A DNA stretch of 14,826 nucleotides from Candidatus Aminicenantes bacterium UBA4085 (GTDB lineage: Bacteria > Acidobacteriota > Aminicenantia > Aminicenantales > UBA4085), in contig DFYJ01000066.1 of the NCBI GenBank assembly GCA_002383325.1, forward strand, positions 1-14,826. The letters are read 5' to 3'. Positions 1-14,826 of this stretch are shown here, in pieces (within the stretch, counting starts at the first letter, position 1; every line of letters begins with the position of its first letter). The notes under the pieces were generated by a model. The model did not search any database and was not told the DNA's origin. It saw only the letters and a program-made list of their open reading frames with translations. The position numbers and the translations under genes are program-made.

Positions 1-2
1 GT

Positions 3-89
3 GCCCGCTCCCTCGCCGATGGTTTTGCCCCCCTCATAGCCCTCGCCCTAGTTCCCAGCGATGAAGCCGATCCATGGAAAACATGCTAA
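3..89 (+). CDS. Possible C-terminal end of an upstream gene
   Basis: The third forward frame is open from the window edge to a TAA at 87-89 and would encode 28 residues ending DEADPWKTC. The other two forward frames stop earlier, at 39 and 64. The stop would overlap the beginning of the helicase gene, and an ATG at 83-85 sits next to this stop as ATGCTAA, a common form of translational coupling. Third-position GC is only moderate compared with the genes that follow. I do not recognise the product, and chance openness over so short a stretch is quite possible. Confidence 0.25.
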   Translation, partial: ARSLADGFAPLIALALVPSDEADPWKTC

Positions 90-2284: not shown

Positions 2285-2325
2285 TCGAACCCCTATCATG
2301 GGATGAGACCGAAAAGGAGGAGCGC

Positions 2326-2811
2326 ATGAGGACTTTCCGCACCCGCGCCACGCTCGGCGGGCTGCTCGCCCTGGCCCTGCTGGCCGCCGCGGCCGACACC
2401 GTCGTGGTCAAGGTCCAGAGCTCGGCCATCCGGCAGAATCCCCAGTTCTTCGCTCCGGTCGTGGCCGCGGTCCGGGCCGGCGACAGGCTGGCCAAGCTGG
2501 CCGAGTCCAACGGCTGGCTCCAGGTTAAGTCGGCCGCCGGGGCCGCCGGCTGGATCCACGCCGGAGCCGTGGAAGCGTCCCGTCTGGCCCTGGCCTCCTC
2601 CTCCTCGGCCATGAAGACGCAGGCCTCGGCCTCCGAAGTGGCCTTGGCCGGCAAGGGCTTCAACAAGCAGATCGAGGACAGCTACAAGACCAAGAACCCG
2701 TCGCTCAACTTCGCCGCCGTCGACCGCCTTCTCCAAGTCAGGGCCGCCCCATCCCAGGTGGAGGATTTCCTCAGGCGCGGCAAGCTGGCTCCCTTCGGAG
2801 GCGCCAAGTGA
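2326..2811 (+). CDS. Exported SH3-like domain protein
   Basis: A 161-aa protein with a probable signal peptide: an Arg-rich start (MRTFRTRATLGG), a hydrophobic core LLALALLAAAA, and the mature part from about residue 23. Residues about 25-82 look like a bacterial SH3 (SH3b) fold: VVVKVQSSAIRQNPQFFAPV, then VRAGDRLAKLAESNGWLQVK and GAAGWIHAGAVE, matching the pattern of two-strand units ending in a Gly-Trp-Ile/Val element. Such domains usually bind cell-wall or protein ligands outside the cytoplasm. The C-terminal half is Ser/Ala-rich and then charged, with no recognised domain. A strong ribosome binding site (AGGAGGAG) lies just before the ATG. Its stop overlaps the GTG start of the M48 protease as GTGA, so the two proteins are probably made together and may act together in the periplasm; that partnership is inferred from layout only. 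Confidence 0.85.
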   Translation: MRTFRTRATLGGLLALALLAAAADTVVVKVQSSAIRQNPQFFAPVVAAVRAGDRLAKLAESNGWLQVKSAAGAAGWIHAGAVEASRLALASSSSAMKTQASASEVALAGKGFNKQIEDSYKTKNPSLNFAAVDRLLQVRAAPSQVEDFLRRGKLAPFGGAK

Positions 2812-3716
2812 GCGCCCGGCGCCGGCTGCCGCTTGTCCTGGCCCTCCTTCTGGGGCTGTCCGCCGGCTCGGCCTACGCCCAGGGAATAGGCGGAGTCCTC
2901 AACAAGGTCAACAAGGTCGCCAAGACCGGCAAGGAAGCGGCCAAGGTCGTCAAGACCGTGCGCAACACCTTCGGCGACATCAGCGATGAGGAAGAGCACT
3001 ACATCGGCCGCAGCGTGGCGGCCCTGATTCTGTCGCGCTATGCGCCGCTCAACAACCCGGCCTTGAGCCAATATGTCAACATCCTGGGCCAGGCCGTGGC
3101 CCTGTCCTCCGACCGGCCCGAGACCTATGCCGGGTATCACTTCCAGATCCTGAACTCCGACGAGGTCAATGCCCTGGCCGCCCCCGGCGGGATGATCTTT
3201 CTGACCAAGGGGCTGATCAAGCTCTGCCCGGACGAGGAGGCCCTGGCTTCCATTCTGGCCCATGAGATCGGTCACGTGGCCGCCCGGCACGGCCTGCAGT
3301 CCATTAAGAAGTCGCGCCTGGTGGACGCCTTCAAGCTCATGGAGCAGGGCACCCTCCAGAAGTACACGCCCGGCGAGCTGGACCAGCTGACCGGGATCTT
3401 CGAAAACGCCCTCGGCGACATCGCCGAGAGCCTGGTCGAGAAAGGCTACGACCGCAAATACGAGTACGAGGCCGACGAGCTGGCCCTGAAAACCAGCCTG
3501 CGGGCCGGCTACGACCCGACCGGGTTGAACCGCTTCCTTCAGACCATGGCCGGCGGCGCGGCGGCCTCTTCGGGCCTGGGTTGGTTCAAGACCCACCCGA
3601 CGCCCGAGCAGAGGATCGGCAAGGCGGAAAAGGTCGAGGCGGGCATGGGCCCGCTGCCGACGATCCTGGCCGCCCGGACGGCCCGGTTCCAGGCGGCCAC
3701 AGCGGGGCTGAAATAG
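2808..3716 (+). CDS. M48-family zinc metalloprotease, exported
   Basis: A 302-aa periplasmic M48 peptidase of the BepA/LoiP/Oma1 type, a group that degrades or matures envelope proteins. Residues 1-24 form a signal peptide (MSARRRLPLVLALLLGLSAG, cleavage near AYA-QG). The catalytic helix is ILAHEIGHVAARHG with H152, E153 and H156. The third zinc ligand is expected in EYEADELA (E221). The conserved SDEVNALAAPGG stretch precedes the helix, and the C-terminal THPTPEQRIG element (about 262-271) is the usual M48 signature. No TPR repeats follow, so it is shorter than BepA. The start is GTG, preceded by GGAGG six bases upstream inside the previous gene. The family is clear; whether it acts as a protease or partly as a chaperone cannot be told from sequence. 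Confidence 0.93.
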   Translation: MSARRRLPLVLALLLGLSAGSAYAQGIGGVLNKVNKVAKTGKEAAKVVKTVRNTFGDISDEEEHYIGRSVAALILSRYAPLNNPALSQYVNILGQAVALSSDRPETYAGYHFQILNSDEVNALAAPGGMIFLTKGLIKLCPDEEALASILAHEIGHVAARHGLQSIKKSRLVDAFKLMEQGTLQKYTPGELDQLTGIFENALGDIAESLVEKGYDRKYEYEADELALKTSLRAGYDPTGLNRFLQTMAGGAAASSGLGWFKTHPTPEQRIGKAEKVEAGMGPLPTILAARTARFQAATAGLK

Positions 3717-3723
3717 GAGAGGA

Positions 3724-5799
3724 GTGGATAAGAAGCTTCTCCGCGGCGTCCTGGCCGGGTCGGGCGCCTTTCTCTTGGCCGCGGCCTTGGGCGGGCTGGG
3801 CTTCTGGCGGGGCCTGGAGTTGAAGAGCTGGGACGCCCGCATCCGTCTCTTCGCCGAGTCCGATCCCTCTCCCGATATTGCGATCATCCTCGTCGATCAG
3901 TACAGCCTGGACCATTTCAAGGCCCAGGAAGTCTCCTGGCCTTGGCCGCGCCAGATGTACGCGCCGATCCTGGGATACCTGAAAGATGGAGGCGCCCGTT
4001 CGGTCTTCATGGACATCATGATGAGCGAGGCGTCGACATATGATGTCGAAGACGACGAGATGCTGGCCGCAGCCCTGCGCGAATCGGGCAACGTCGTGCT
4101 GCCGATCTTCCTCAGCGGCGAGGACAAGCCGTCCTCGGACGGCGCCGAAGCCTTCCTGAAGAAATCAGCCTTGGTGGCCGGAGCCTGGCCCAAGCCTGGG
4201 CGGAGCTTCCACTCGGCCACCGTTCCCATCCCGATTCTGGCCGAAGCGGCCCGGGGCGGGGCGGAAGTCCACGTGGATCCCGACGCCGACGGGATCTACC
4301 GCCGCATGCCGCTGGCCACCAGAATCGGCGACCGGGACATCCCCTCGGTCGCCTTGGCGCTGTCGCGCATGGGACCCGCTCCGGCGGCCCAGACGGCCAT
4401 GCCCCCGCTGGACCGCGACGGGGCCATGCTGATCCGCTATCGTTCGGGCCGAGCTTTCCCGGCTACTCCGGCAGCGTCGATCATCGACGGCTGGCTGAAG
4501 ATGTCCGAGGGGGAGGAGCCGGCCATCCCGCCGCAGGCCTTCGCCGGGAAGAACGTCCTCATCGGCCTGAGCGGAGTCGGCCTCCTGGACATGAAGACGT
4601 CCCCGGTCAGCCGGGCCGTGCCCGGCGTCGAGATCCAGGCCGCTGCGCTTGACACGCTCCTGCGGGGGCGCTTCCTGCGCCACCCTTCGCCCCTGATCGA
4701 CCTGCTTCTAGCGCTCCTGCTGGCGATCGGCGCGGCCGCTGCGATCTCCCGGATCGGCAAACCGGCCGTCCTGGGAGCCGCCGCCGCCGGCCTCCTGGCC
4801 TTGCCTTCCGCCGCGGCCTGCCTGGGCTTCGCGGCGGGCCGCTGGGTCTCGCTCGTCCTTCCGACCGCGGGCGTCCTGTTCGCGGTGATCGCGGCGGCCG
4901 TCTGGAGCTACGCCGCGGAGGGGCGCCAGAAGCGCTTCCTCAAAACGGCTTTCCGGCAATATCTCAGCCCCCACGTCGTCGAGCGGGTGTCCGAGAACCC
5001 GGCCCTGCTGCGGCTGGGCGGGGAGAGGCGCGAGATCACCTCATTTTTCTCGGATGTGGCCGGATTCACATCGATCTCCGAGTCGCTGGGGGCCGAGGGG
5101 CTGGTGGCCCTGCTCAACGAGCTGCTGTCGGCCATGTCGGACATCATCCTGGATGAGGCCGGCACGCTCGACAAATACGAGGGTGACGCCATCGTCGCCT
5201 TCTGGAACGCTCCGCTCGATACTCCCGACCACGCCCTGCGGGCCTGCCGGGCGGCCTTGGCCTGCCAGAGCAGGCTGGCCGCCATGGGGCCGGGGCTCGA
5301 GGCCCGCTATGGCCATAAGCTCCATATGCGCATCGGCCTCAACACGGGGCCGGCGGTGGTCGGCAACATGGGCTCGAGCCGCCGCTTCGATTACACGGCC
5401 ATGGGCGACACGGTGAACTTGGCCGCGCGCCTGGAAGGCGCCTGCAAGCCCTTCGGCATCTCCATTCTGGCCGGGGAGGGAACGGTCGCCGCGGCCGGCC
5501 CGGACATCGTGGCCCGCGAAATCGATCGCCTCCGGGTCGTAGGCAAAAGTCTTCCGACCCGGATTTTCGAGATCGTGGGGCGGCGGGAGGACGTCGGGGC
5601 GGATGCGCTGGCCAGGCTGGACTCCTTCCGCGGCGTCCTGGACGCCTACCGCCGACGGGCCTGGTCCGAGGCGGAAGCTGAAGCCGCGGCTTTGGCCGGG
5701 GATCCGGTGGCGGCCGTCTACGCCGCGCGCTGCGCCCGATACCAGACCGATTCGCCGCCGGAGGACTGGGACTTCGTCTTCGATCTCAAGACTAAATGA
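3724..5799 (+). CDS. CHASE2-domain class III adenylate cyclase, membrane-bound
   Basis: A 691-aa membrane receptor cyclase predicted to make cAMP from ATP. An N-terminal membrane segment (about residues 7-28) leads into a CHASE2 extracytoplasmic sensor (about 35-315: LKSWDARIRLF, IILVDQYSLDHF, GVEIQAAALDTLL). Further hydrophobic segments follow (about 324-398), then a class III cyclase domain (about 430-620). Catalytic features are all present: metal aspartates D444 (FFSDVAGFTS) and D488 (KYEGDAIVAFW), adenine-selecting K484 and D556 (FDYTAMGDTVNLAARLE), and transition-state N565 and R569. The Lys/Asp pair argues for ATP over GTP. The GTG start has GGAGAGGA directly upstream, seven bases after the M48 stop. 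A hydrolase gene and a cyclic-nucleotide-domain channel gene follow in the same run, so cAMP made here probably acts on that channel. The signal sensed by CHASE2 is unknown. Confidence 0.93.
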   Translation: MDKKLLRGVLAGSGAFLLAAALGGLGFWRGLELKSWDARIRLFAESDPSPDIAIILVDQYSLDHFKAQEVSWPWPRQMYAPILGYLKDGGARSVFMDIMMSEASTYDVEDDEMLAAALRESGNVVLPIFLSGEDKPSSDGAEAFLKKSALVAGAWPKPGRSFHSATVPIPILAEAARGGAEVHVDPDADGIYRRMPLATRIGDRDIPSVALALSRMGPAPAAQTAMPPLDRDGAMLIRYRSGRAFPATPAASIIDGWLKMSEGEEPAIPPQAFAGKNVLIGLSGVGLLDMKTSPVSRAVPGVEIQAAALDTLLRGRFLRHPSPLIDLLLALLLAIGAAAAISRIGKPAVLGAAAAGLLALPSAAACLGFAAGRWVSLVLPTAGVLFAVIAAAVWSYAAEGRQKRFLKTAFRQYLSPHVVERVSENPALLRLGGERREITSFFSDVAGFTSISESLGAEGLVALLNELLSAMSDIILDEAGTLDKYEGDAIVAFWNAPLDTPDHALRACRAALACQSRLAAMGPGLEARYGHKLHMRIGLNTGPAVVGNMGSSRRFDYTAMGDTVNLAARLEGACKPFGISILAGEGTVAAAGPDIVAREIDRLRVVGKSLPTRIFEIVGRREDVGADALARLDSFRGVLDAYRRRAWSEAEAEAAALAGDPVAAVYAARCARYQTDSPPEDWDFVFDLKTK

Positions 5800-5812
5800 A
5801 AGGATAGCCATC

Positions 5813-6631
5813 ATGCGGATCGAATTCTTCGGCGTGCGAGGCTCGTTTCCGGCAGCCGGCCAATGCCAATCCCTCTATGGCGCCGCGACCCCCTGCGCCC
5901 TGATCAAGTCGGCGGCGGGGGAGCAGGTCATCCTGGACGCGGGAACCGGCCTGCGCACGCTGGGGGCGCAGATGATGGCCAAGGCGGGCGAAGGGACGCT
6001 GAAGGCGACCATCTTGTTCACCCACTTTCACCTCGACCATGTCCTGGGCCTGCCTTTCTTCGACATCCTCTACCGGCCGAACACCGAGATCACCTTCATC
6101 TCCTGGGTGGATCCGGAAGAGGCCCATGAGATCCTGGCGCTGCTGATGAAGGCGCCCCTCTTCCCGGTTGGATTCGACGAGACCCCGTCCAAAAAGACTT
6201 TTGTCCGCATCGGTCCCGAGGGCGCGACGATGGCCGGCATGCGCGTCCAGCGGACCCAGCTGCGCCATCCCCAGGGCTGCATGGCCTACCGCTTCGACGA
6301 CGGCAAGCGCAGCGCAGTCTTCGCCACCGACACCGAGCACCCTGAGGAAGGGATCGACGCCCGGCTGGCCGATCTGTCCCAGAAGGCCTCGCTCCTGGTC
6401 TATGACGCCATGTACACGCCGGAGGAATACGAGGCTGGCCGCCAGGGCTGGGGCCACAGCACCTGGGAGCAGGGCGTGCGGCTGGCCAAGGCGGCCAAGG
6501 TCGGGCGGCTCCTGCTGTCCCACCTCAACCCCAACTATGACGATCGGGCGGTCGGCCGCATGAGGCGGGCGGCCAAGGCCAATTTCCGGCACGTCGAAGT
6601 CGCCGCGGCCGGGATGGTGGTCAAGCTGTGA
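5813..6631 (+). CDS. MBL-fold metallohydrolase, candidate cyclic-nucleotide phosphodiesterase
   Basis: A 272-aa metallo-beta-lactamase-fold hydrolase of the PhnP/COG1235-like group, opening with the characteristic MRIEFFGVRGSFP. Metal ligands are visible: HFHLDH at 71-76, H152, D173 (ATDTEH) and H237 (LLLSHLNP), with H215 (GWGHSTWEQG) also conserved-looking. The group includes phosphodiesterases, and relatives are often annotated as 3',5'-cyclic-nucleotide phosphodiesterases. The start is the ATG with AAAGGA eight bases upstream, 13 bases after the cyclase stop; the frame is open further upstream inside the cyclase gene but without reason to start there. Lying between a cyclase and a cAMP-type channel, it is an attractive candidate for removing cAMP. 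That role is inferred from position and fold; nuclease, phosphonate-related or other phosphodiester substrates remain possible. Confidence 0.9.
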   Translation: MRIEFFGVRGSFPAAGQCQSLYGAATPCALIKSAAGEQVILDAGTGLRTLGAQMMAKAGEGTLKATILFTHFHLDHVLGLPFFDILYRPNTEITFISWVDPEEAHEILALLMKAPLFPVGFDETPSKKTFVRIGPEGATMAGMRVQRTQLRHPQGCMAYRFDDGKRSAVFATDTEHPEEGIDARLADLSQKASLLVYDAMYTPEEYEAGRQGWGHSTWEQGVRLAKAAKVGRLLLSHLNPNYDDRAVGRMRRAAKANFRHVEVAAAGMVVKL

Positions 6632-8301
6632 TGGATCCTTCGGCCCCGCGGTCGATCTACGGCACTCTATCCGTCTATCTGCTGGTCGTCGCGGGGGCGC
6701 TTCTCCTCTACCTGATCACGCGATTCCTGGCCGGGCGCTTTTCGGCGGGGATGGGGCGGAACGGACGGATCCTCACGAGCCGCCTGAGCCTGCCGGCGGT
6801 CTTCGGCCTGGCCTTCGCCGGCCTTTCGGCCTTTGCCCCGGTGCCGGCGGGCTACCGGCCCTATATCGACGCGGGGGTTGTCTTCTTCGTCTTCTTCTTC
6901 CTCATCAGGCTGTTCGATGCGCTGTTGTCGATCTGGTACGGACGGTCCCGAAAGTCCTTTCCCATGCCGGACGTGCTGCGCAACCTCGTTCTCGGGATCA
7001 TGGAGCTGGCGGTCCTCTTCATCGTCCTCAAGGCTATCCTGAAGATCGATCTGTCGCCGATCCTGGGCGCCTCGGCCATCCTGACCATGGTCCTGGGCTT
7101 AGCTCTTCAAGGCGTTCTGAGCAACATCCTGTCGGGAGCGTCGCTCCATTTCGTTCGCTCCATCAACCGCGGCGACTGGGTCTCGATCGGGGCCCACGAG
7201 GGTGTCGTCGTCGACACTAACTGGCGCGAGACCCGCATCCTGGACCGGGCCTCGAACATCGTCGTTCTGCCCAACACGGTGGTGGCTTCGGAAAGAATCA
7301 TCAACTACGCCCAGCCGGACAGCCGGACGGCCCTTCTGCTGCCGTTCAAGCTGAGCCCGCAAGCCCCGGCGGGGGAGGTGCTGAGCGTCCTGGTCGAGGC
7401 GGCTCGGGATTGCCCTTCGGTCGTGTCCGATCCTGCGCCCCTGGCCTTCCTCCAAAGCTTCGACGAATGGGGCGTTTCCTACCTCTTGAAGTTCTGGGTC
7501 ACGGACTATGCCCGCAAGCACAGCATCATCACCGATGTCGGCCGGCTGGCCTGGTACAAGCTGCGCCGCCGCGGCTTCGAGATCGCGGTGCCGGCGGCGG
7601 AAGGATTCCGCGCCCTGACGGGAATAGCCGGAGCTGCGGGGCGTCAGGCGCCCGCGCCGGTCCCGGCGATCCCCGACGCCCAAGCCGGCGACGAAGCCGA
7701 AGAGAGCTTCGCCGCCCTGATGCGCTCGGCTTTCCTGCGGCGGCCCCGAGAGGGCGGCTTGGGCGAGCTTCTCGTGCCTGAAGACCACGTCCGCGACCTG
7801 GCCTCGGTCGTCATCCGGGCCGTCTATGCCAAGGGCGAAGTCCTCTTCCGGCAGGGCGACAAGGGCCGCAGCGCTTACGTCATCGTGCGCGGGAGGATCC
7901 GGGGTGAGATCGTGACCCAGGAAGCGGGCAAGGCCTACACCTCCGCGTTCAGCGTCGGCTCCGGGGGGCTGTTCGGAGAGATGTCGCTTTTCACCGGCAT
8001 GCCGCGCACCGCCACCGGGATCATCGAGGAGGAAGCCGTCCTGCTGAAGATCCGGGCCGAGGACTTCGGACCGGTGCTGGCCAAGAACCCCGACCTGGCC
8101 GAGGTCATCGCCGACCTGGTCAGCGCCCGCAACCAGCTGAACCGCGAGAGCCTGCTGAAGATCAAGGATCTCTCGGAAAAGGACATCCAGGCGGGGACCA
8201 GCAAGCGCAGCATCCTGGACTACCTGAAGAGGTTTGTCGGCATCCGCAAAGGCAGGGGAACGGAACCTGACGACGGCTCCGTGCCGCCGCCGGAGGATTG
8301 A
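6631..8301 (+). CDS. MscS-family channel with C-terminal cyclic-nucleotide-binding domain
   Basis: A 556-aa inner-membrane channel of the bacterial cyclic-nucleotide-gated MscS type. Hydrophobic segments occupy about residues 12-34, 53-70, 80-101 and 116-137. The pore-lining helix and beta-domain region follows (ILGASAILTMVLGLALQGVLSN near 144-165; FVRSINRGDWVSIG near 174-187; VVLPNTVVASERIINY near 211-226). A proline/alanine-rich linker (about 336-355) leads to a cyclic-nucleotide-binding domain (about 388-500) with GEVLFRQGDKGRSAYVIVRG, and the phosphate-binding cassette GGLFGEMSLFTGMPRTAT with E450 and R459. The Arg-Thr-Ala arrangement fits cAMP binding. The start ATG shares one base with the preceding stop (TGATG); a GTG three bases earlier is an alternative. 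Relatives are reported to be gated by cAMP and often to respond poorly to tension. With a predicted adenylate cyclase two genes upstream, ligand and receptor appear to be co-expressed. Confidence 0.94.
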   Translation: MDPSAPRSIYGTLSVYLLVVAGALLLYLITRFLAGRFSAGMGRNGRILTSRLSLPAVFGLAFAGLSAFAPVPAGYRPYIDAGVVFFVFFFLIRLFDALLSIWYGRSRKSFPMPDVLRNLVLGIMELAVLFIVLKAILKIDLSPILGASAILTMVLGLALQGVLSNILSGASLHFVRSINRGDWVSIGAHEGVVVDTNWRETRILDRASNIVVLPNTVVASERIINYAQPDSRTALLLPFKLSPQAPAGEVLSVLVEAARDCPSVVSDPAPLAFLQSFDEWGVSYLLKFWVTDYARKHSIITDVGRLAWYKLRRRGFEIAVPAAEGFRALTGIAGAAGRQAPAPVPAIPDAQAGDEAEESFAALMRSAFLRRPREGGLGELLVPEDHVRDLASVVIRAVYAKGEVLFRQGDKGRSAYVIVRGRIRGEIVTQEAGKAYTSAFSVGSGGLFGEMSLFTGMPRTATGIIEEEAVLLKIRAEDFGPVLAKNPDLAEVIADLVSARNQLNRESLLKIKDLSEKDIQAGTSKRSILDYLKRFVGIRKGRGTEPDDGSVPPPED

Positions 8302-8326
8302 AAAAGGGGCGGGGAAGCCTTATAGT
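8298..8326 (+). promoter_or_regulatory. Sigma70-like promoter of the tRNA-Arg gene
   Basis: TTGAAA at 8298-8303 and TATAGT at 8321-8326 are separated by exactly 17 bases, close to the consensus -35 and -10 boxes. The -35 box overlaps the TGA stop of the channel gene. The tRNA begins about 20 bases after the -10 box, after a small GCCCC/GGGGC hairpin (8331-8346) in the leader. No transcript data are available; the call rests on box quality, spacing and position. Confidence 0.65.
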
Positions 8327-8346
8327 GATGGCCCCATCGACGGGGC

Positions 8347-8424
8347 GCGCCTGTAGCTCAGTATGGATAGAGCAGCGGTTTCCTAAACCGTTGGTCGGGT
8401 GTTCGAGTCACCCCAGGCGCGCCA
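8347..8424 (+). tRNA. tRNA-Arg, anticodon CCT, CCA end encoded
   Basis: A full cloverleaf can be folded by hand. Acceptor GCGCCTG (8347-8353) pairs with CAGGCGC (8414-8420). The D arm is GCTC/GAGC. The anticodon arm is GCGGT-TTCCTAA-ACCGT, giving anticodon CCT, which reads AGG (Arg). A five-base variable region is followed by the T arm GGGTG-TTCGAGT-CACCC. The discriminator G is followed by an encoded CCA (8422-8424). The gene is intact even though base composition and gene style change immediately downstream. Together with the repeats at 8467-8561, this suggests that its 3' end served as the attachment site of an integrated element. Confidence 0.96.
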
Positions 8425-8466
8425 CTCAATTTCGGGCTTAAATCAAACCTTATCAGGATGATGGCG

Positions 8467-8496
8467 GATTCCATCCGTTTCCATCCTTTTCAATCC
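8467..8496 (+). repeat. Three tandem 10-bp units, 43 bp after the tRNA
   Basis: GATTCCATCC, GTTTCCATCC and TTTTCAATCC follow one another with an exact 10-bp period. All share the TTC(C/A)ATCC core. The period of about one helical turn, and the position between the tRNA 3' end and the TGGCACAA repeats, suggest binding sites for a recombination or accessory protein. They could also be a short degenerate tandem repeat without function. Confidence 0.55.
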
Positions 8497-8511
8497 TAGT
8501 AGACATAATTA

Positions 8512-8561
8512 TGGCACAAATGTGGCACAAATCGAAAAAAGTGGCACAAATATGGCACAAG
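8512..8561 (+). repeat. Four TGGCACAA direct repeats in two pairs, probable integrase arm sites
   Basis: TGGCACAAAT occurs at 8512-8521, 8523-8532 and 8542-8551, with TGGCACAAG at 8553-8561. Start-to-start distances are 11, 19 and 11 bp, so there are two couplets with an identical one-turn internal spacing. Arm-type sites of tyrosine recombinases are commonly about 10-bp direct repeats arranged in such couplets near the attachment core. They lie 88-137 bp beyond the tRNA end, the expected side for an element inserted at a tRNA 3' end. The function is inferred; the repeats themselves are plain in the sequence. Confidence 0.7.
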
Positions 8562-8716
8562 ATTTTCGGTCGTTTTTCTCTTCGTGGTAATAAGCGCAGG
8601 CCGAGTAGTGAGGGCGACAATTAATAAGCCTTCTCATCGAATGGCAAACCGATCCTCAAATTTGCTGGGAGTAAAGGGTCGGGGATTTGGGCCGCCGGGA
8701 ATGGCGGAATTATGTC

Positions 8717-9412
8717 TCAGTGGGCCCGGGAAGAGTAGAGCAATTCGTAATCCTGAATAAGCCCATGGTCTGCAAACGAGAAAAAGCGCTTCTCGCCAAT
8801 TACGAGATGGTCGAGGAGCTTCATGCCCATCACTCGACATGAGAAAACGAGCTCCCGGGTAATCTCCCGGTCGCATTGGCTCGGATCCGGATCTCCGGAT
8901 GGGTGATTGTGGCAGACGACGACAGCCGCCGCGTTCAATTGTAGCGCCGTCTTGATGATTTCGCGAGGATAGACGGCCGATGAATCGACCGTCCCCCGAA
9001 ACTGCTCCACGTTCGCGATTACTTGATTTTTCGCATTCAGGTAAAGGACCCTCATGCTCTCGATCTTTGAGCCCGCGAATAAATGGATGAGAGCCTCGAA
9101 TGCCTCGCCGGAGGACCGCGCGAAGGGCTTCGCCTCGATTTGCTCGGAAGCGTAGCGGCGGAGAAGCTCCCGGACGGCCTGCGCCCGGAAGACGAGATCC
9201 GGACCGGCACCGGCGGCCTTGAGCTCTTCGGGCTCCGCATCCAGGACCCGGCGCGCGGACCCCTTCATGGTCCGGATCACGTCGGGCGCTTCATCGGAGG
9301 CGCCGATCAGGATTGCCAGCAGCTCGTCGGTCATGATAGAAGATGGCCCGGCCGCCTCATAGCGGGACCGGGCCTCTTCCTCAACTCTTGGGGTCAGGCG
9401 GCGTTGTTTCAT
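8717..9412 (-). CDS. radC: RadC-family JAMM/MPN-domain protein
   Basis: A 231-aa RadC-like protein, close to the usual length of the family. Residues about 1-90 correspond to the N-terminal helical region. The JAMM/MPN+ metalloprotease-like domain spans about 100-225, with E136 (VEQFRGTVDSS) and the HNHPSGDPDPSQCD signature giving H168, H170, S178 and D181. RadC proteins were once thought to be repair proteins, but their role is unsettled. They are frequent on prophages, genomic islands and integrative elements, which fits this location. The ATG start overlaps the preceding gene's stop as ATGA, with GGAGG about 11 bases upstream, so it is the last gene of a leftward three-gene operon. The frame is open for 19 more codons upstream, but those overlap the neighbouring gene. 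Confidence 0.92.
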   Translation of the reverse strand: MKQRRLTPRVEEEARSRYEAAGPSSIMTDELLAILIGASDEAPDVIRTMKGSARRVLDAEPEELKAAGAGPDLVFRAQAVRELLRRYASEQIEAKPFARSSGEAFEALIHLFAGSKIESMRVLYLNAKNQVIANVEQFRGTVDSSAVYPREIIKTALQLNAAAVVVCHNHPSGDPDPSQCDREITRELVFSCRVMGMKLLDHLVIGEKRFFSFADHGLIQDYELLYSSRAH

Positions 9413-9615
9413 GAGCTCTTCGCCTCCCGGATGATACGGTCGGCAATCGCGGCCTGTCCGGCGCAGCAATCGGCGGCCTCGTAGAACAGCAACATCCGCT
9501 GAGCGTAGGCGGCTCCGGAATGGACCGGCCCGGAAAACTCGACCGCGCGGACCATGGCCTCGCCATACTTGCGGCCGAGATCCCCGGCAGCTTTGCGGTG
9601 CTCTTCGGGTGTCAC
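9409..9615 (-). CDS. Small hypothetical protein (68 aa) in the radC operon
   Basis: The frame begins with GTG at 9615, preceded by AAGGAAGG, and starts one base after the stop of the upstream small gene; it ends in an ATGA overlap with radC. The predicted product starts VTPEEHRKAAGDLGRKYGEA and looks helical, with two adjacent cysteines near the middle (DCCAG, residues 50-52). I do not recognise a family. The frame stays open for a further 46 codons upstream, but that extension overlaps the neighbouring small gene and has no better start. Tight coupling on both sides is the main evidence that it is real. Confidence 0.65.
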   Translation of the reverse strand: MTPEEHRKAAGDLGRKYGEAMVRAVEFSGPVHSGAAYAQRMLLFYEAADCCAGQAAIADRIIREAKSS

Positions 9616-9616
9616 G

Positions 9617-9790
9617 TCATCCTTCCTTGGGCGGCCAGTAGCCCAGCTCGGCCGCGAACCTCTCGCGCTGCCGCGTGAGGCCGGACAATAACTCTCTCGC
9701 CCGCTCTTGCCGGCCGGTGAGATCTTCGGGACGGCTTGCCGGTTCCGTCCCATGCTCCGACTCTGTAGCTCCGACGATTGACGTCTTCAT
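9617..9790 (-). CDS. Small hypothetical protein, first gene of the radC operon
   Basis: A short charged protein of 57 aa from ATG at 9790 (MKTSIVGATESEHG) or 70 aa from GTG at 9829. It ends ELGYWPPKEG, and its final codons serve as the ribosome binding site of the next gene. The middle (LTGRQERARELLSGLTRQRERF) should form an amphipathic helix. Neither start has a good Shine-Dalgarno sequence. The longer version would be partly encoded by copies of the repeat array described to the right, so I prefer the shorter. No family recognised; reality is supported by the one-base spacing to the next gene. Confidence 0.55.
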   Translation of the reverse strand: MKTSIVGATESEHGTEPASRPEDLTGRQERARELLSGLTRQRERFAAELGYWPPKEG

Positions 9791-9898
9791 GCCAACTATT
9801 GCAGCAGCCTGGCCGGGACTCAATCCCACCGCAATGATGGCCCATTTTCCACCGCAATGATGCCCAGCCTCCCGCGTCCCTCATTCCCTTCCCCTCTT

Positions 9899-9929
9899 CG
9901 CGCGCGCGCGTAAGAATATATATATATAT
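9899..9929. repeat. Adjacent (CG)6 and (AT)7 dinucleotide tracts
   Basis: Twelve bases of perfect alternating CG (9899-9910) are followed after five bases by fourteen bases of alternating AT (9916-9929). A polypyrimidine stretch precedes them. Alternating CG can adopt Z-DNA, and alternating AT unwinds or extrudes easily, so the pair could act as a strand-opening element within the repeat-rich segment. They could also be simple replication-slippage products. Confidence 0.6.
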
Positions 9930-10230
9930 CTTCTCTTCTCCCCCATGATCTGCCTTGTGTCTGCTCCCCCCAAACTATTGCAGTACGGTCCGCCTTGATC
10001 CTAGGCCGGGTTAAATTCTGTAGCTTTCTCTGCCTCCCCCTCAACCATTGCAGTGGCCTCAACCATTGCAACAGAGAGCCCAACCATTGCAACAGGATCA
10101 AATGCAATGGTACTAGATATATCATTAAAGAGGGGTAACTATTGCAGAGGAGAGGGGGGGGCTATTGCAATGATGGGCACCCCCGCGACCCCCCCTGGGA
10201 ACTTTCGGATTTGGGCCGGAGTGCTCATTC

Positions 10231-10260
10231 TACCCATTCCTCAGAAAATTTCTGGGGGTA
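10231..10260. repeat. Nested inverted repeat upstream of the small cysteine-rich gene
   Basis: CAGAAA (10242-10247) and TTTCTG (10249-10254) form a perfect 6-bp inverted repeat around a single A. They are flanked by TACCC (10231-10235) and GGGTA (10256-10260), which can extend the symmetry imperfectly. It sits about 90 bases before the start codon of the next rightward gene and could be an operator or a leader hairpin. No T tract follows, so it is not an obvious terminator. Confidence 0.35.
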
Positions 10261-10351
10261 TCTTGGGAGATCATCATTGCATTTATTGGAAGGGTGGGAT
10301 TGGCTTGTGTTTTTTGGGGGTAGGTGCAATAGAGGGTATGAGAGAGAAAAG

Positions 10352-10594
10352 ATGACTAAGGGGAAAGCGATCAAGAAATACTGTCTTGAGTGTGGTGGTT
10401 CCGAGCGAGCCAACGTCATGCTGTGCCACATTCTCGACTGCCCGCTTTGGCCGTTCCGGTTCGGATCCACGCAAGGATCAAAAACCTATCGCAACCGAAT
10501 GACTGTGGCCTGGGAGCACTATCGAGAAGCGCGGGAGGAACTGGAGCGAGACGGGATAACCCTTGCCGACATGATAGAAAAGCTCGTTTCTTAG
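10352..10594 (+). CDS. Small cysteine-motif protein of phage/mobile-element type
   Basis: An 80-aa basic protein. The N-terminal half carries KKYCLECGGSE, then CHILDCPLWPFRFG, with C11, C14, C25 and C30 spaced like a small zinc-binding site. The Cys-Leu-x-Cys-x-Gly-Gly-Ser ... Cys-Pro-Leu-Trp-Pro-(Phe/Tyr)-Arg pattern is one I associate with short uncharacterised proteins of prophages and integrative elements, which supports the mobile nature of this region. The C-terminal half is helical and charged (AREELERDGITLADMIEKL). The ATG has only a weak purine-rich site (GAGAG) before it. The frame is open 70 codons further upstream but that part is low-complexity and encoded by the repeat region. 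The biochemical role is unknown. Confidence 0.7.
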   Translation: MTKGKAIKKYCLECGGSERANVMLCHILDCPLWPFRFGSTQGSKTYRNRMTVAWEHYREAREELERDGITLADMIEKLVS

Positions 10595-10725
10595 AGATCC
10601 GGACGTATCAGGAGCGTGTTTCTGGCGAATAAGTCGGAAAGTATGCCCCCGAAGCAGCTGGCTGGCAAGATAGTTCAAGCAAGGGCCTTTGGGGGGCTCT
10701 TAATATCTAATTCAAGGAGGCTCTC

Positions 10726-11046
10726 ATGGCGGAAGAAAAAAAAGATGGCCAGGCTGCGTTCCCCCTGTTCGGGGACATGGATGGGATCGTAAAAGTAATC
10801 GAGAAAGAGTACAACGATATTTCGGCTCGGATGACAAGGCTATGCGACCGTCGGGACGAGATTTGTGACGAGTTCGAGCGGCAGATGAAGCGGTTCGAGG
10901 AAGTTGGAAAGGCCCTCCGCGAGGCCCGGAAGATGGCCGAGTTTATTGGATCGATAAAACACTTCAGGGAAGCCCTCGAGATCGACAAGGCAGCGAAAAT
11001 CGGACCGTGCCTCATCCTCCCTGGCCGCAAGATGGGCACAAATTAA
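10726..11046 (+). CDS. Hypothetical coiled-coil protein (106 aa)
   Basis: A strong ribosome binding site (AAGGAGG, five bases before the ATG) supports translation. The predicted protein has a short lysine-rich N-terminus, then a long helical, highly charged stretch (about residues 20-90) with heptad-like spacing, for example IEKEYNDISARMTRLCDRRD and FERQMKRFEEVGKALREARK. This suggests an oligomerising or scaffold-type coiled coil. No catalytic motif is visible, and I do not recognise a family. It lies 131 bases downstream of the small cysteine-motif gene on the same strand; both could belong to the rightward set that begins after the repeat array. Codon use is less GC-biased than in the genes before the tRNA. 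Confidence 0.7.
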   Translation: MAEEKKDGQAAFPLFGDMDGIVKVIEKEYNDISARMTRLCDRRDEICDEFERQMKRFEEVGKALREARKMAEFIGSIKHFREALEIDKAAKIGPCLILPGRKMGTN

Positions 11047-11241
11047 AGATTTTTCATATCCGTCCTCCGGTCAGGTCCGCGAAGACATACCGATTACACG
11101 AACCTCGTCGTCGTAGAGCTAGGTTCCTTAGTTTGTTCTAATCACAATTCCCTTTATACGAGCAATTTGATTATCCTTCTCAACGCGCGTCTCCGAGGGG
11201 GGCCGCGTCTTCGGGTTCTTTAATTCTTGCGGACCAACAAT
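11047..11241. other. Intergenic region between convergent genes
   Basis: This 195-base stretch separates the end of the rightward coiled-coil gene from the end of the leftward zincin-like gene. I see no gene and no convincing bidirectional terminator. The only structure noticed is a weak ACGCG/CGCGT pairing near 11181-11206, without a T tract on either side. AT content rises here compared with the DNA to the left. Confidence 0.4.
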
Positions 11242-11700
11242 TCAAATCCAAAATTCGGCTTCTCGAGCATCAATTTCGTATGGAGCATTGGTGTAGCCGA
11301 ATTGTACAATCTGTTGAAGGTACTTTGGTAGGTATGCCGCGATTGAACCAGCCTGTTCATACTGCTGAACGTGGCGGCACTCGTGCGACAGCAAGCGGGA
11401 GGAGTTGTGCCCGCTGCATATATAGATGCCGTAGCCGAGAGTGAGGCCGATCATGCCCGGACCGAGCAAGCCAGTTCGCACGGCAGCCTGCCGAAGCAGA
11501 AGATCGGTGGGCATCGGTAGCTGGGCAACAAATGAGAGTCGGATTATTTCGGGATGTGATACGCCAACCCTCTGTGCTAGCGGAAGTTCGCGCTCGGTAA
11601 GTGGCTCACCAGATTTGGCAATTTGAAAAGCGTGCTGCTCTGCCCATTCAATAGCCCTGGGGATAATAAGCGGAAGAGCCGTGGCAAGCTCGAATTTCAT
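11242..11700 (-). CDS. HExxH zincin-like putative metallopeptidase (152 aa)
   Basis: The motif LSHECRHVQQYEQAG contains a complete HExxH (H106, E107, H110), the zinc-binding and catalytic signature of zincin metallopeptidases. Downstream APYEIDAREAE (about 139-149) supplies acidic residues that could give the third ligand (E142, D144 or E147). The arrangement, with the motif near the C-terminus followed by a short helix and an acidic end, resembles small uncharacterised zincin-like proteins. The region before the motif (GLTLGYGIYICSGHNS) may form the beta sheet next to the active site. There is no signal peptide. The ATG chosen has AGG six bases upstream; a TTG at 11757 would add 19 residues. 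It is the second of two leftward genes in an AT-rich block, 98 bases after the first. Substrate unknown. Confidence 0.7.
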   Translation of the reverse strand: MKFELATALPLIIPRAIEWAEQHAFQIAKSGEPLTERELPLAQRVGVSHPEIIRLSFVAQLPMPTDLLLRQAAVRTGLLGPGMIGLTLGYGIYICSGHNSSRLLSHECRHVQQYEQAGSIAAYLPKYLQQIVQFGYTNAPYEIDAREAEFWI

Positions 11701-11798
11701 GTGTAACCTTGGATTAAGGTACAGTGGCGCCTTAATTTCGCCATAACCCACCGGCAAAAGTAAAGCAGTGCTTTTGCTCGCTCGAATTGATGTCGCAT

Positions 11799-12761
11799 TT
11801 ATATTTCAGATAGATCATAGGGTAAATGAAATCTAGCGTTGGCGACAATATCGTCCACGAACGCTCGCCAATTCACTTGGATGACTCTACAAGAGAGGTA
11901 GTGTGCGGCCATTAGGGTGAATGCACGCGCCACATTGGCAAGGTCTTGAACAAAGGCTGTGAGGGTGTCGGAATAATCAGCACCATAGGAAAGATAAATA
12001 GCATCTCTATAGTTCGCTTTTCCTCGGTAACGAAACGCCTCTACAAGAAAGTTAACGTGTGCCTTAATAAGACTTTCATCTCTGATGACTCTCGCGGCGA
12101 TAGTCCTAAAGTTCACGAACCCGTGGGCTTTAAATATTGGACTTTCTTGTACTACTTTTTTCTCTAAGCGCTCCCTCTCGTAATCCGCCGTACCTTTTAA
12201 ATATGAGATTGCAGCGCCAAATGCTTGTTCATGATTCGTTGGAGTAACGTTAAGATTATTCAGGTTACCATTGCGAAGCCTATTAATCGCGTTTTCAATG
12301 TTCTTTGGAGTTAGGTTTTTAAGATAGAGATCGAATGGCGATATAGCCAAGTTCCGTGTTGCGATTTCGGCTTGCCACACCTTACATGTTTTTGAATGTG
12401 TTTCCGGATCGCTCCCTGTTGCTGCCGCCAACATCGATTTGCTCCCATAGTAGGTTGCATAATACCAAGCAATAATGGCGGATCGCACAAGCGAATATGG
12501 CTCATCTAGTTCGCATGTTTTTTGTAGCGCTGAGACGTTGTGTATCGCCATCAATAAGCATTTAAAGGCAAGAGTATCCGCTTCTTGATTAGGGGGACGC
12601 CTTTGTATTTGGCCATAGAAAATACGAAGGGGGTCGTGAGAGAAGGCTCCTTCACTGACGAGAATTGAGAGGGCTCTCATCCAATTTACCGTGCCTTGAA
12701 ATGCAAACAGTGGATCTGTCCGGTGTTGATGGTCAAATAAGCGGTTAAGTAACCAAGTCAT
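11799..12761 (-). CDS. Hypothetical 320-aa helical protein, possibly HEPN-like
   Basis: I do not recognise this protein with confidence. It is predicted almost wholly helical, with no signal peptide or clear membrane segment. The stretch SLVRSAIIAWYYATYYGSKS (residues 90-109) resembles the first helices of HEPN-type domains, where Arg followed by small residues and two tyrosines recurs. A second helical stretch, EAFRYRGKANYRDAIYLSYG (241-260), has a similar flavour. A canonical RNase motif (R-x4-6-H) is not obvious, so an active HEPN ribonuclease is not established. Base composition is clearly lower in GC than the left part of the window, a sign of recent acquisition. A good -10 box lies about 30 bases before the ATG. 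It heads a leftward pair with the zincin-like gene. A defence or stress role would be a guess from location. Confidence 0.65.
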   Translation of the reverse strand: MTWLLNRLFDHQHRTDPLFAFQGTVNWMRALSILVSEGAFSHDPLRIFYGQIQRRPPNQEADTLAFKCLLMAIHNVSALQKTCELDEPYSLVRSAIIAWYYATYYGSKSMLAAATGSDPETHSKTCKVWQAEIATRNLAISPFDLYLKNLTPKNIENAINRLRNGNLNNLNVTPTNHEQAFGAAISYLKGTADYERERLEKKVVQESPIFKAHGFVNFRTIAARVIRDESLIKAHVNFLVEAFRYRGKANYRDAIYLSYGADYSDTLTAFVQDLANVARAFTLMAAHYLSCRVIQVNWRAFVDDIVANARFHLPYDLSEI

Positions 12762-13454: not shown

Positions 13455-14826
13455 ATGAAGTTAGAAGATCTCAAACCAAACACGACTCTCATGGGGCTCA
13501 TTTCAGATAGCACCATCACAGTTGTTAGCGTCCAGTGGCATGGATCGGACGCCCTTGCCCTCATCTATCGTACACCCGCCGGCCGTGTTGCCGAGGAGAT
13601 CCTTTATCGTCACGATGAACCGCGCCTGGAAGTGGTTGAAAAGGGTCGCCCTTGGAGCTTCGACGGAGACGGTGCCCTCTTCCGGCTGGTCTCCGAAGCG
13701 CACCGTATCCGCCTAGCTCACCTCTTTGATCCGGTACTCGCTGTGCATACGTCGCTCGTAGAACCGTTACCGCACCAAATCACTGCAGTATACGAGGCGA
13801 TGCTTCCCCGTCAGCCACTGCGTTTTCTTCTTGCCGACGACCCGGGGGCAGGCAAGACGATTATGGCGGGACTTCTCATCAAGGAACTGATAGCCCGAGG
13901 GGACCTGAAGCGATGCCTCATCGTCTGTCCAGGCGCACTTGCCGAACAGTGGCAGGACGAGTTGTTCCGCCGCTTCCATCTCCCGTTCGAGATTATGACC
14001 AACGACAAGTTTGAAGCCGCCCGTACTGGCAACTGGTTCCTAGAAAACGATTTGACTATCGCCCGTCTCGATAAGCTCTCCCGCAATGAGGATGTTCAAG
14101 CGAAGCTAAGTGCTCCCGACTGCCGATATGACCTAGTTGTTTGTGACGAGGCACACAAGATGTCGGCGACCTTCTTTGGGGGGGAAGTGAAGTTTACCAA
14201 GCGCTATAAGCTTGGCCAGCTCCTCTCGGGCCTCACTCGCCACTTCCTGCTGATGACCGCAACCCCGCATAACGGCAAGGAGGAGGACTTCCAGTTGTTC
14301 CTCGCCTTGCTCGACGGCGATCGTTTCGAGGGTCGCTTCCGTGATGGTGTGCACCAAGTGGAAGTCTCCGATCTGATGCGTCGGATGGTGAAGGAGGGGT
14401 TGGTCAAATTCGACGGCCGACCGCTCTTTCCAGAGCGCATCGCCTACACTGTGCCCTATAAGCTTTCGGAGGACGAGGCGCGCCTATACAAGGAAGTTAC
14501 TGAATACGTGCGCGAGGAGTTCAATCGCGCTGAGGCCTTGCAGAACGACAAGCGCGCTGGAACAGTCGGCTTTGCCCTCACGATCTTGCAGCGTCGCCTC
14601 GCATCATCTTCTGAGGCAATCTATCAATCCCTCCGGCGCCGTCGCGAGCGGTTAGAAAAGCGCTTGCGGGAGCTGGAACTTCTGCAGCGTGGAGCGGCAG
14701 TTCCCGAGATGCCGATCGCCACCGGCCCGCTGCTCGACGCGGAGGACGTCGAAGATCTCGACGAAGCCCCGGAGAACGAAGTCGAGGCCGCCGAAGAGGC
14801 AGTGCTCGATCAGGCCACGGCCGCAG
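13455..14826 (+). CDS. drmD: DrmD-like SNF2-family helicase of a putative DISARM system, cut by the window end
   Basis: The frame is open from ATG at 13455 to the last base, giving 457 residues of a protein usually about 1000 aa or longer. Helicase motifs are clear: PLPHQITAVYE (104-114), Walker A DDPGAGKT (128-135), DEAH (231-234) followed by KMSATFFGGE, motif III TATPHNGKEEDFQLF (268-282), and ILQRRLASSSEAIYQS (377-392). The end of the fragment is a coiled, acidic insert (about 395-457). The N-terminus (MKLEDLKPNT, VVSVQWHG, FDPVLAVHTSLVEPLPHQ) and NDKFEAARTGNWFLENDL match my memory of DrmD, the SNF2-like helicase of class 1 DISARM, a restriction-like anti-phage system. In that class, drmD commonly precedes an adenine methylase gene and drmABC. 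Related helicases also occur beside DUF499/DUF1156 genes, so the system type needs the downstream genes. Codon use and GC differ from the AT-rich genes just before it. Confidence 0.7.
   Translation, partial: MKLEDLKPNTTLMGLISDSTITVVSVQWHGSDALALIYRTPAGRVAEEILYRHDEPRLEVVEKGRPWSFDGDGALFRLVSEAHRIRLAHLFDPVLAVHTSLVEPLPHQITAVYEAMLPRQPLRFLLADDPGAGKTIMAGLLIKELIARGDLKRCLIVCPGALAEQWQDELFRRFHLPFEIMTNDKFEAARTGNWFLENDLTIARLDKLSRNEDVQAKLSAPDCRYDLVVCDEAHKMSATFFGGEVKFTKRYKLGQLLSGLTRHFLLMTATPHNGKEEDFQLFLALLDGDRFEGRFRDGVHQVEVSDLMRRMVKEGLVKFDGRPLFPERIAYTVPYKLSEDEARLYKEVTEYVREEFNRAEALQNDKRAGTVGFALTILQRRLASSSEAIYQSLRRRRERLEKRLRELELLQRGAAVPEMPIATGPLLDAEDVEDLDEAPENEVEAAEEAVLDQATAA

Follow-up and report, generated by a model that had tools for sequence, protein, structure and literature searches.

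A two-strand array of YATTGCR sites on a tRNA-Arg island of an Aminicenantes-like chromosome: a candidate replication origin and control region

Introduction

What is done by a seven-base word that is packed, on both strands, into the gap between two oppositely directed gene sets? The question is raised by a short segment of the 14,826-bp stretch of DNA analyzed here (the window). A sequence-only reading had placed a dense YATTGCR array between opposed gene sets, and the array indeed fills the gap that separates a radC operon, directed leftward, from the rightward gene of a small four-cysteine protein. That reading regarded the array as a cis-acting locus, namely an iteron-type origin, a partition or transfer site, or a multi-site operator. 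An array of sites is found, and both an iteron origin and an operator fit it, while the partition or transfer part of the proposal gains no specific support. Judging from the sequence, the array is well supported as a cis-acting set of putative protein-binding sites, which would most likely dock a protein that switches the genes of the island or starts its replication. Such an arrangement is probably of a known kind; the word YATTGCR itself is unfamiliar.

Results

Density of the motif in the gap and in related DNA

Thirteen copies of YATTGCR lie at 12 places between 9797 and 10331, since two copies (10163 on the plus strand and 10166 on the minus strand) overlap. Twelve copies in about 540 bp had been claimed, and the recount sustains the claim. 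In the gap (9754–10351, 598 bp), 5000 dinucleotide shuffles gave a mean of 0.37 copies and a largest number of 4. In the same test, ATTGCA occurs 11 times (shuffle mean 0.50, largest 5) and AACYATTGCA six times (shuffle mean 0.002, largest 1). No 6-mer is commoner in the gap than ATTGCA, and the top 6-mer of any kind in 2000 shuffles did not exceed 10 copies. The whole window contains 17 YATTGCR against 5.7 expected, a number reached in none of 200 shuffles. Thirteen of the 17 fall at 9797–10331, one is in the chromosomal part of the window (1–8424), and three lie elsewhere on the island.

The motif is not dense in ordinary DNA of related chromosomes, a point that the sequence-only reading had asked to be checked. 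Five related chromosomal loci (L055–L059, 57.5 kb) contain no YATTGCR, against about 17 expected from dinucleotides, a deficit that suggests, if anything, avoidance of the word. In 274 kb of loci from class genomes there are 105 copies, and the dense loci among them (10 copies per 540 bp) are a single tandem-repeat stretch of one genome (G114). Among 239 loci and the window, the window is second in copies per 540 bp (13), after L134 (14, all on one strand), and it shares with L175 the maximum number of copies on the rarer strand (five); this comparison is harsh rather than random, because the loci were chosen for the motif.

The array might be functionless, as debris of decayed repeats or a chance cluster in low-complexity DNA. 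The gap does have CG, AT, C, and G tracts, and ATATATA and CGCGCGC are among its commonest 7-mers. This explanation is nevertheless most improbable, since the dinucleotide-keeping shuffles never came close to 13 copies, and since the copies stand on both strands in unrelated surroundings and form no single tandem repeat.

Sequence and spacing of the sites

Alignment of the 13 sites sharpens the consensus to AYYATTGCR, which is asymmetric and present on both strands. The base at −2 is A in 11 of the 13 sites, and that at −1 is C or T in all of them, followed by YATTGC; the final base is A in 11 sites and G in two. The left flanks are of two kinds, AACY- and CATC-.

The motif scan places the sites as follows. 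Site 1 (TATTGCA, 9797–9803, plus strand) is 7 bp before the ATG at 9790 of the leftward ORF-A, and is within ORF-A if the GTG at 9829 is the start. Sites 2 and 3 (CATTGCG, 9830–9836 and 9853–9859) are both on the minus strand. An identical 14-mer is found at 9826–9839 and 9849–9862, in agreement with the 14-bp match noted before between two inverted copies; relative to each other, the two are direct repeats. Site 4 (TATTGCA, 9976–9982) is on the plus strand, as are sites 5, 6, and 7 (CATTGCA, 10046–10052, 10064–10070, and 10085–10091). The three extended forward copies described earlier are also found, as CAACCATTGCA at 10042, 10060, and 10081 with spacings of 18 and 21 bp. Site 8 (CATTGCA, 10103–10109) is on the minus strand and site 9 (TATTGCA, 10140–10146) on the plus strand. 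Sites 10 (plus) and 11 (minus) form an overlapping inverted pair around ATTGCAAT at 10163–10172. Site 12 (CATTGCA, 10275–10281, plus strand) is followed by site 13 (TATTGCA, 10325–10331, minus strand), which stands 20 bp ahead of the ATG (10352) that opens the next gene. The spacings of the close sites are 18, 21, 18, 37, and 23 bp, and some of those of the outlying sites are 33, 50, 70, 109, and 123 bp.

Anatomy of the gap

The gap is bounded by a leftward open reading frame (9409–9753) and the ATG at 10352. The CG and AT dinucleotide tracts ascribed to it are present, as (CG)5 at 9901–9910 and an AT tract at 9915–9929. The least stable 25-mer of the window (rank 0 of 14801) is the AT tract at 9911–9935, and its third least stable 25-mer peak (rank 18 of 14801) is an AT-rich element at 10106–10130. 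This element occupies the widest of the close spacings (37 bp), with sites 5–8 and sites 9–11 standing on its opposite sides. At the 100-bp scale, the stability of the array region is unremarkable (8th and 11th peaks). The GC skew changes from −0.28 (10000–10099) to +0.21 (10100–10199), flipping at about 10100.

No DnaA box (TTWTNCACA) occurs in the whole window. No sigma-70 promoter-like match is found in the gap; the two in 8400–11800 lie elsewhere and equal the number expected by chance. A structured RNA at the array was rejected, as the Rfam search gave the tRNA alone. A decayed initiator gene was also rejected, because Pfam and PHROG give no match for the ORFs that overlap it; a 101-aa minus-strand ORF over the array gave one PHROG match, at E 0.072.

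The island and its genes

The chromosomal half of the window is colinear with L055, a locus of an Acidobacteriota bacterium STD1_136 MAG (78.6% identity over 2563–8422), and is 68.9% identical to L057, labelled Candidatus Aminicenantes. The colinearity with L055 ends at the 3′ end of tRNA-Arg(CCT) (8347–8424, plus strand; ARAGORN; 65.5 bits in Rfam). Beyond the tRNA, the GC content falls from about 0.65 to 0.43–0.53 over much of the stretch, with parts of the radC operon at 0.59–0.66. The end of colinearity and the GC drop at the tRNA point to insertion of an island there. By sequence, then, the array sits on an island in an Aminicenantes-like Acidobacteriota chromosome, starting at the 3′ end of tRNA-Arg(CCT), which is taken as the left junction. 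The last 12–18 bases of the tRNA occur once in the window, and the right end of the island is beyond it. Four copies of TGGCACAA are found just inside the island on the plus strand (8512–8560; starts at 8512, 8523, 8542, and 8553). Three of the four extend as TGGCACAAAT, about 90–130 bp inside the island from the tRNA. These copies are possible integrase arm-type sites.

The genes of the island are arranged in the order of radC, two small ORFs, the array, an 80-aa cysteine gene, a 106-aa gene, genes with no confident function, and an HmaA-like helicase. The radC-like gene (8717–9412, minus strand; Pfam RadC 137.8 bits; phrog_10276) has its ATG at 9412, overlapping the stop codon of the preceding gene. 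That gene, ORF-B (9409–9615, minus strand, GTG start), has no match in the libraries searched, and no relative in 141 genomes of the class or in viral contigs. ORF-A (9617–9829, minus strand; start at GTG 9829 or ATG 9790), the first leftward gene, has no Pfam, PADLOC, or PHROG match. On the right side, the 106-aa protein (10726–11046, plus strand) has no confident match (PHROG E 0.05 or worse) and no relative in 142 genomes of the class. A 171-aa ORF (11242–11757, minus strand) contains a HECRH motif and matches phrog_37302 weakly (E 5.1e-7); from its sequence, it may be a small metallopeptidase. An HmaA-like SNF2 helicase (13455–14826, plus strand; PADLOC HmaA 724 bits) is cut by the window end after its N-terminal 457 residues, and an Hma-type defence system is thus probably among the cargo of the island. 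Searches with Pfam, PADLOC, and PHROG found no initiator, primase, helicase loader, integrase, ParA/ParB, relaxase, terminase, or known-family regulator in the window.

A possible replication origin

Our leading reading, held tentatively and at somewhat below an even chance, is that an integrative satellite-like element has its replication origin and control region in the gap 9754–10351. The AYYATTGCR sites would serve as short iterons for an initiator that the element encodes beyond the window. Occupying sites 5–8 and 9–11, this initiator would bend and strain the AT-rich element at 10106–10130 until it melts, and the AT tract at 9911–9935 may melt too. The melted element would let a helicase load once the island is excised or induced. 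At the outlying sites near both start codons, the same protein would damp both divergent gene sets; iteron initiators commonly repress nearby genes as well. The sites, with their density, spacing, and orientation, the AT-rich elements, the skew flip, and the mobile setting are observed; binding by a protein, the role of that protein as an initiator, and replication of the element are inferred.

Several observations favor an origin. The density is far above chance, and related chromosomes have virtually no background. The sites are asymmetric and closely spaced, as near-identical short repeats about two turns apart (18–23 bp, with one 37-bp gap), and an AT-rich element fills the widest close gap. 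The least stable and third-peak 25-mers of the window both lie within the array, so that an AT-rich melting element beside the repeats is seen at the 25-mer scale, though not at the 100-bp scale. The GC skew flips in the array; this flip is ambiguous, since divergent transcription gives the same one. Arrays with the same core in six viral initiator-like genes, and the occurrence of cysteine-gene relatives in integrative elements, some with replication-initiation matches, also favor the origin.

Against it, the window has no gene for an initiator, primase, or helicase loader and no DnaA box, and the replication neighbors of the four-cysteine gene are absent here. A DnaA box is not universal in phage or satellite origins. 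The 540-bp spread up to both start codons exceeds what a compact origin needs, some outlying spacings are as wide as 109 and 123 bp, and the 100-bp scale shows no special instability.

A possible multi-site operator

The sites reaching both start codons suggest an operator. An island repressor or activator binding AYYATTGCR would control both divergent gene sets, ORF-A, ORF-B, and radC leftward and the four-cysteine and 106-aa genes rightward, as in the immunity regions of temperate phages and stoperators. We consider this nearly as likely as an origin, as a tentative but serious possibility. The array fills the divergent gap exactly, its ends being 7 bp and 20 bp away from the likely ATGs, and the purine bias moves to the sense strand on either side. 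The sites are asymmetric, like those of the monomeric cluster A mycobacteriophage repressor, as far as the available part of that report goes (PMC9283540). However, stoperators are mostly in one orientation relative to transcription, according to the available part of PMC6550527, whereas the outer sites here are mixed on both sides of the gap. The lack of a known-family regulator gene in the window and of a sigma-70 promoter-like match in the gap also speak against an operator, and thirteen sites are many for one gap.

The four-cysteine neighbor

The first rightward gene (10352–10594, plus strand) encodes an 80-aa protein with the spacing C-x2-C-x10-C-x4-C and weak similarity to zf-C4pol. The earlier statement that no known repeat-binding protein stands beside the array holds for known families (Pfam, PADLOC, and PHROG), but this adjacent putative small zinc protein is a candidate. 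It might itself bind the sites, as a small zinc autoregulator or initiator; we regard this as unlikely. Its gene begins 20 bp past the last site. Four of the six invariant residues in 43 aligned members are Cys, and zf-C4pol is matched weakly in five of eight members (best E 0.0028, under the curated cut-off). On the other hand, the structural model reached middling confidence (pLDDT 75.7), and no solved structure resembled it at E ≤ 0.001. The family is also large: a profile built from eight members reaches 2199 proteins (E ≤ 1e-3), and nearly all examined members are without such an array.

No confident family was assigned by NCBIfam, PHROGs, or Pfam. Identity as an Ogr/Delta-type zinc activator was rejected from the cysteine spacing, which in those activators is C-x2-C-x22-C-x4-C. 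Close homologues are two among 5.8 billion proteins (95% and 71% identity), on metagenome contigs of 4.8 and 5.2 kb, and phage and plasmid records gave no match to the protein. A viral scan with the single protein yielded 20 pattern-matching stretches, and a scan of genome contigs with an alignment (A1) yielded 32; none was confirmed in either. A CPLWxFRFG-like end was observed in the family, whose members occur in phages and integrative elements.

The family was found in five of 142 genomes of the class and three of 396 of the phylum, two of the latter already among the class finds, and none of the loci from these finds has a YATTGCR array. At the class-genome loci of distant relatives, an integrase is present in all four tested, and a replication-initiation match in three of five tested, that in L235 being weak (E 0.002); L234 and L236 gave none. 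The presence of relatives in integrative elements supports a mobile-element control region but no particular function of the array.

Among the best 80 of 231 viral cysteine-gene loci, eight have a strong local 6-mer cluster, and none of the 80 has YATTGCR clustering (at most five per 540 bp). Seven of the eight clusters were inspected: those of L329 and L289 have both-strand copies with no low-complexity explanation, and L276 is a weaker mixed case. In L329, 12 copies of GTTGCA form two clusters of opposite direct and inverted repeats about 1.1 kb upstream of the cysteine gene, an arrangement that favors a cysteine-protein binder. The first cluster has a primase-like gene on one side and a predicted ORF on the other; the second is inside that ORF, which has no PHROG match. 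In L289, seven copies of ACTCGG follow a small terminase gene.

It is very improbable that every part of a fuller picture holds together, in which the array would be the origin of an undescribed satellite-like island of the Aminicenantes lineage, with Hma-like anti-phage cargo, read by the four-cysteine protein.

Arrays with the same core elsewhere

The array DNA matched no phage or plasmid record and was found in none of 142 genomes of the class, and the searches brought up no related island. A two-copy site pattern was also absent from these 142 genomes, the reversed control being found in one. A three-copy pattern was found in three of the 142, as 21-bp repeats on one strand, against five for the reversed control, indicating no enrichment. 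Fifty-two viral radC loci have no YATTGCR array (at most three copies per 540 bp), and the motif letters in the literature gave mainly primer-type matches.

Viral contigs scanned with CAACCATTGCAN{5,20}AACYATTGCA yielded 54 stretches, many with palindromic GTGCAACCATTGCAC repeats 21–23 bp apart; the gene surroundings were inspected for 18 of them. Two further viral pattern scans gave at least 120 and 17 stretches, most of those checked being one-strand coding or tandem repeats. Fifteen of the 17 are within an open ORF; the other two, L253 and L258, have a 29-bp tandem repeat in common, close to terminase genes. In L253 (about 7940–8140), the 29-bp tandem repeats with TTGCAATAG and GAGAATNATTCTC-like palindromes separate terminase-like genes from the gene set that follows.

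Arrays with a TTGCA or ATTGCA core are found inside replication-initiator-like genes in L006, L012, L017, L020, and L044, and, from another scan, L220. All six genes, which were chosen because their sequences looked replication-like, match replication-initiation PHROGs (weakest E 0.0021), and five match Pfam HTH_36, two of them above the cut-off. Their sites are mostly palindromic TGCAAYYATTGCA, unlike those of the window. The support for an origin is weakened by this choice and symmetry, and by the viral radC and cysteine loci being without a YATTGCR array.

In L001, L014, and L037, GTGCAACCATTGCAC repeats 21 bp apart directly precede a small-terminase-like gene, which in L014 matches the PHROG terminase small subunit (E 2.4e-8). 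Repeats of this type may be a packaging site common to many contigs. For the window, these viral arrays offer some support for a packaging role, and clustered short repeats serve partition and transfer roles too. A partition (centromere-like), transfer, or packaging site of the island is nonetheless very unlikely, as the window has no gene for ParA/ParB, a relaxase, or a terminase, and as the viral repeats, which are palindromic, came from a search pattern derived from the window. Repeats with an ATTGCA core thus serve as arrays in replication and perhaps packaging regions of phages, but given the origin of the pattern and the different symmetry of the sites, the likeness is one of analogy, not homology.

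Discussion

How the array compares with described systems should be noted. As far as the available part of PMC6092414 describes them, the origins of PICI and SaPI elements also have short iterons in two sets around an AT-rich element on a chromosomal island. Theirs follow rep, whereas the window has no rep or primase gene, and its sites spread wider, to both start codons. A chromosomal attachment site, as in these elements, is found at the tRNA-Arg 3′ end, its other end being beyond the window. None of their characteristic genes (integrase, divergent regulators, and pri-rep upstream of ori) is within the window, past which the island extends.

The PLE satellite of the Vibrio cholerae phage ICP1 offers another likeness, a non-coding repeat cluster of an integrative satellite with the initiator elsewhere. 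In the available part of PMC7145576, its origin is the non-coding region between orf5 and orf7, and the initiator repA is orf11, apart from it. The PLE iterons are described there as longer and semi-palindromic, whereas those of the window are 9-bp asymmetric words. The oriV of SGI1 is likewise an origin built on repeats, with AT-rich stretches, in a genomic island (PMC7433901, available part). It has four GC-rich direct repeats of 17 bp, together with a DnaA box, next to rep, whereas neither a DnaA box nor rep is found in the window.

Cluster A mycobacteriophage stoperators resemble the array as many short asymmetric sites for one protein. According to the available text of PMC6550527, they are genome-wide and mainly in one orientation, whereas those of the window are packed in one gap in both. 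The iterons of the viral O-like/HTH_36 initiator genes share the ATTGCA core and the 21–23 bp spacing, but they are mostly palindromic and inside the initiator gene. The array is outside any such gene; no initiator-like ORF spans it, in contrast to the lambda O type.

If the array is an origin, it would mark a replicating integrative element in this lineage, none having been met in the general iteron-origin literature, which is not lineage-specific. It would also provide a defined DNA bait to fish out the initiator. If it is an operator, it would show by what means a defence-carrying island is silenced. The locus also draws attention to a large family of small four-cysteine proteins, unnamed in the libraries searched, at the control regions of phages and islands.
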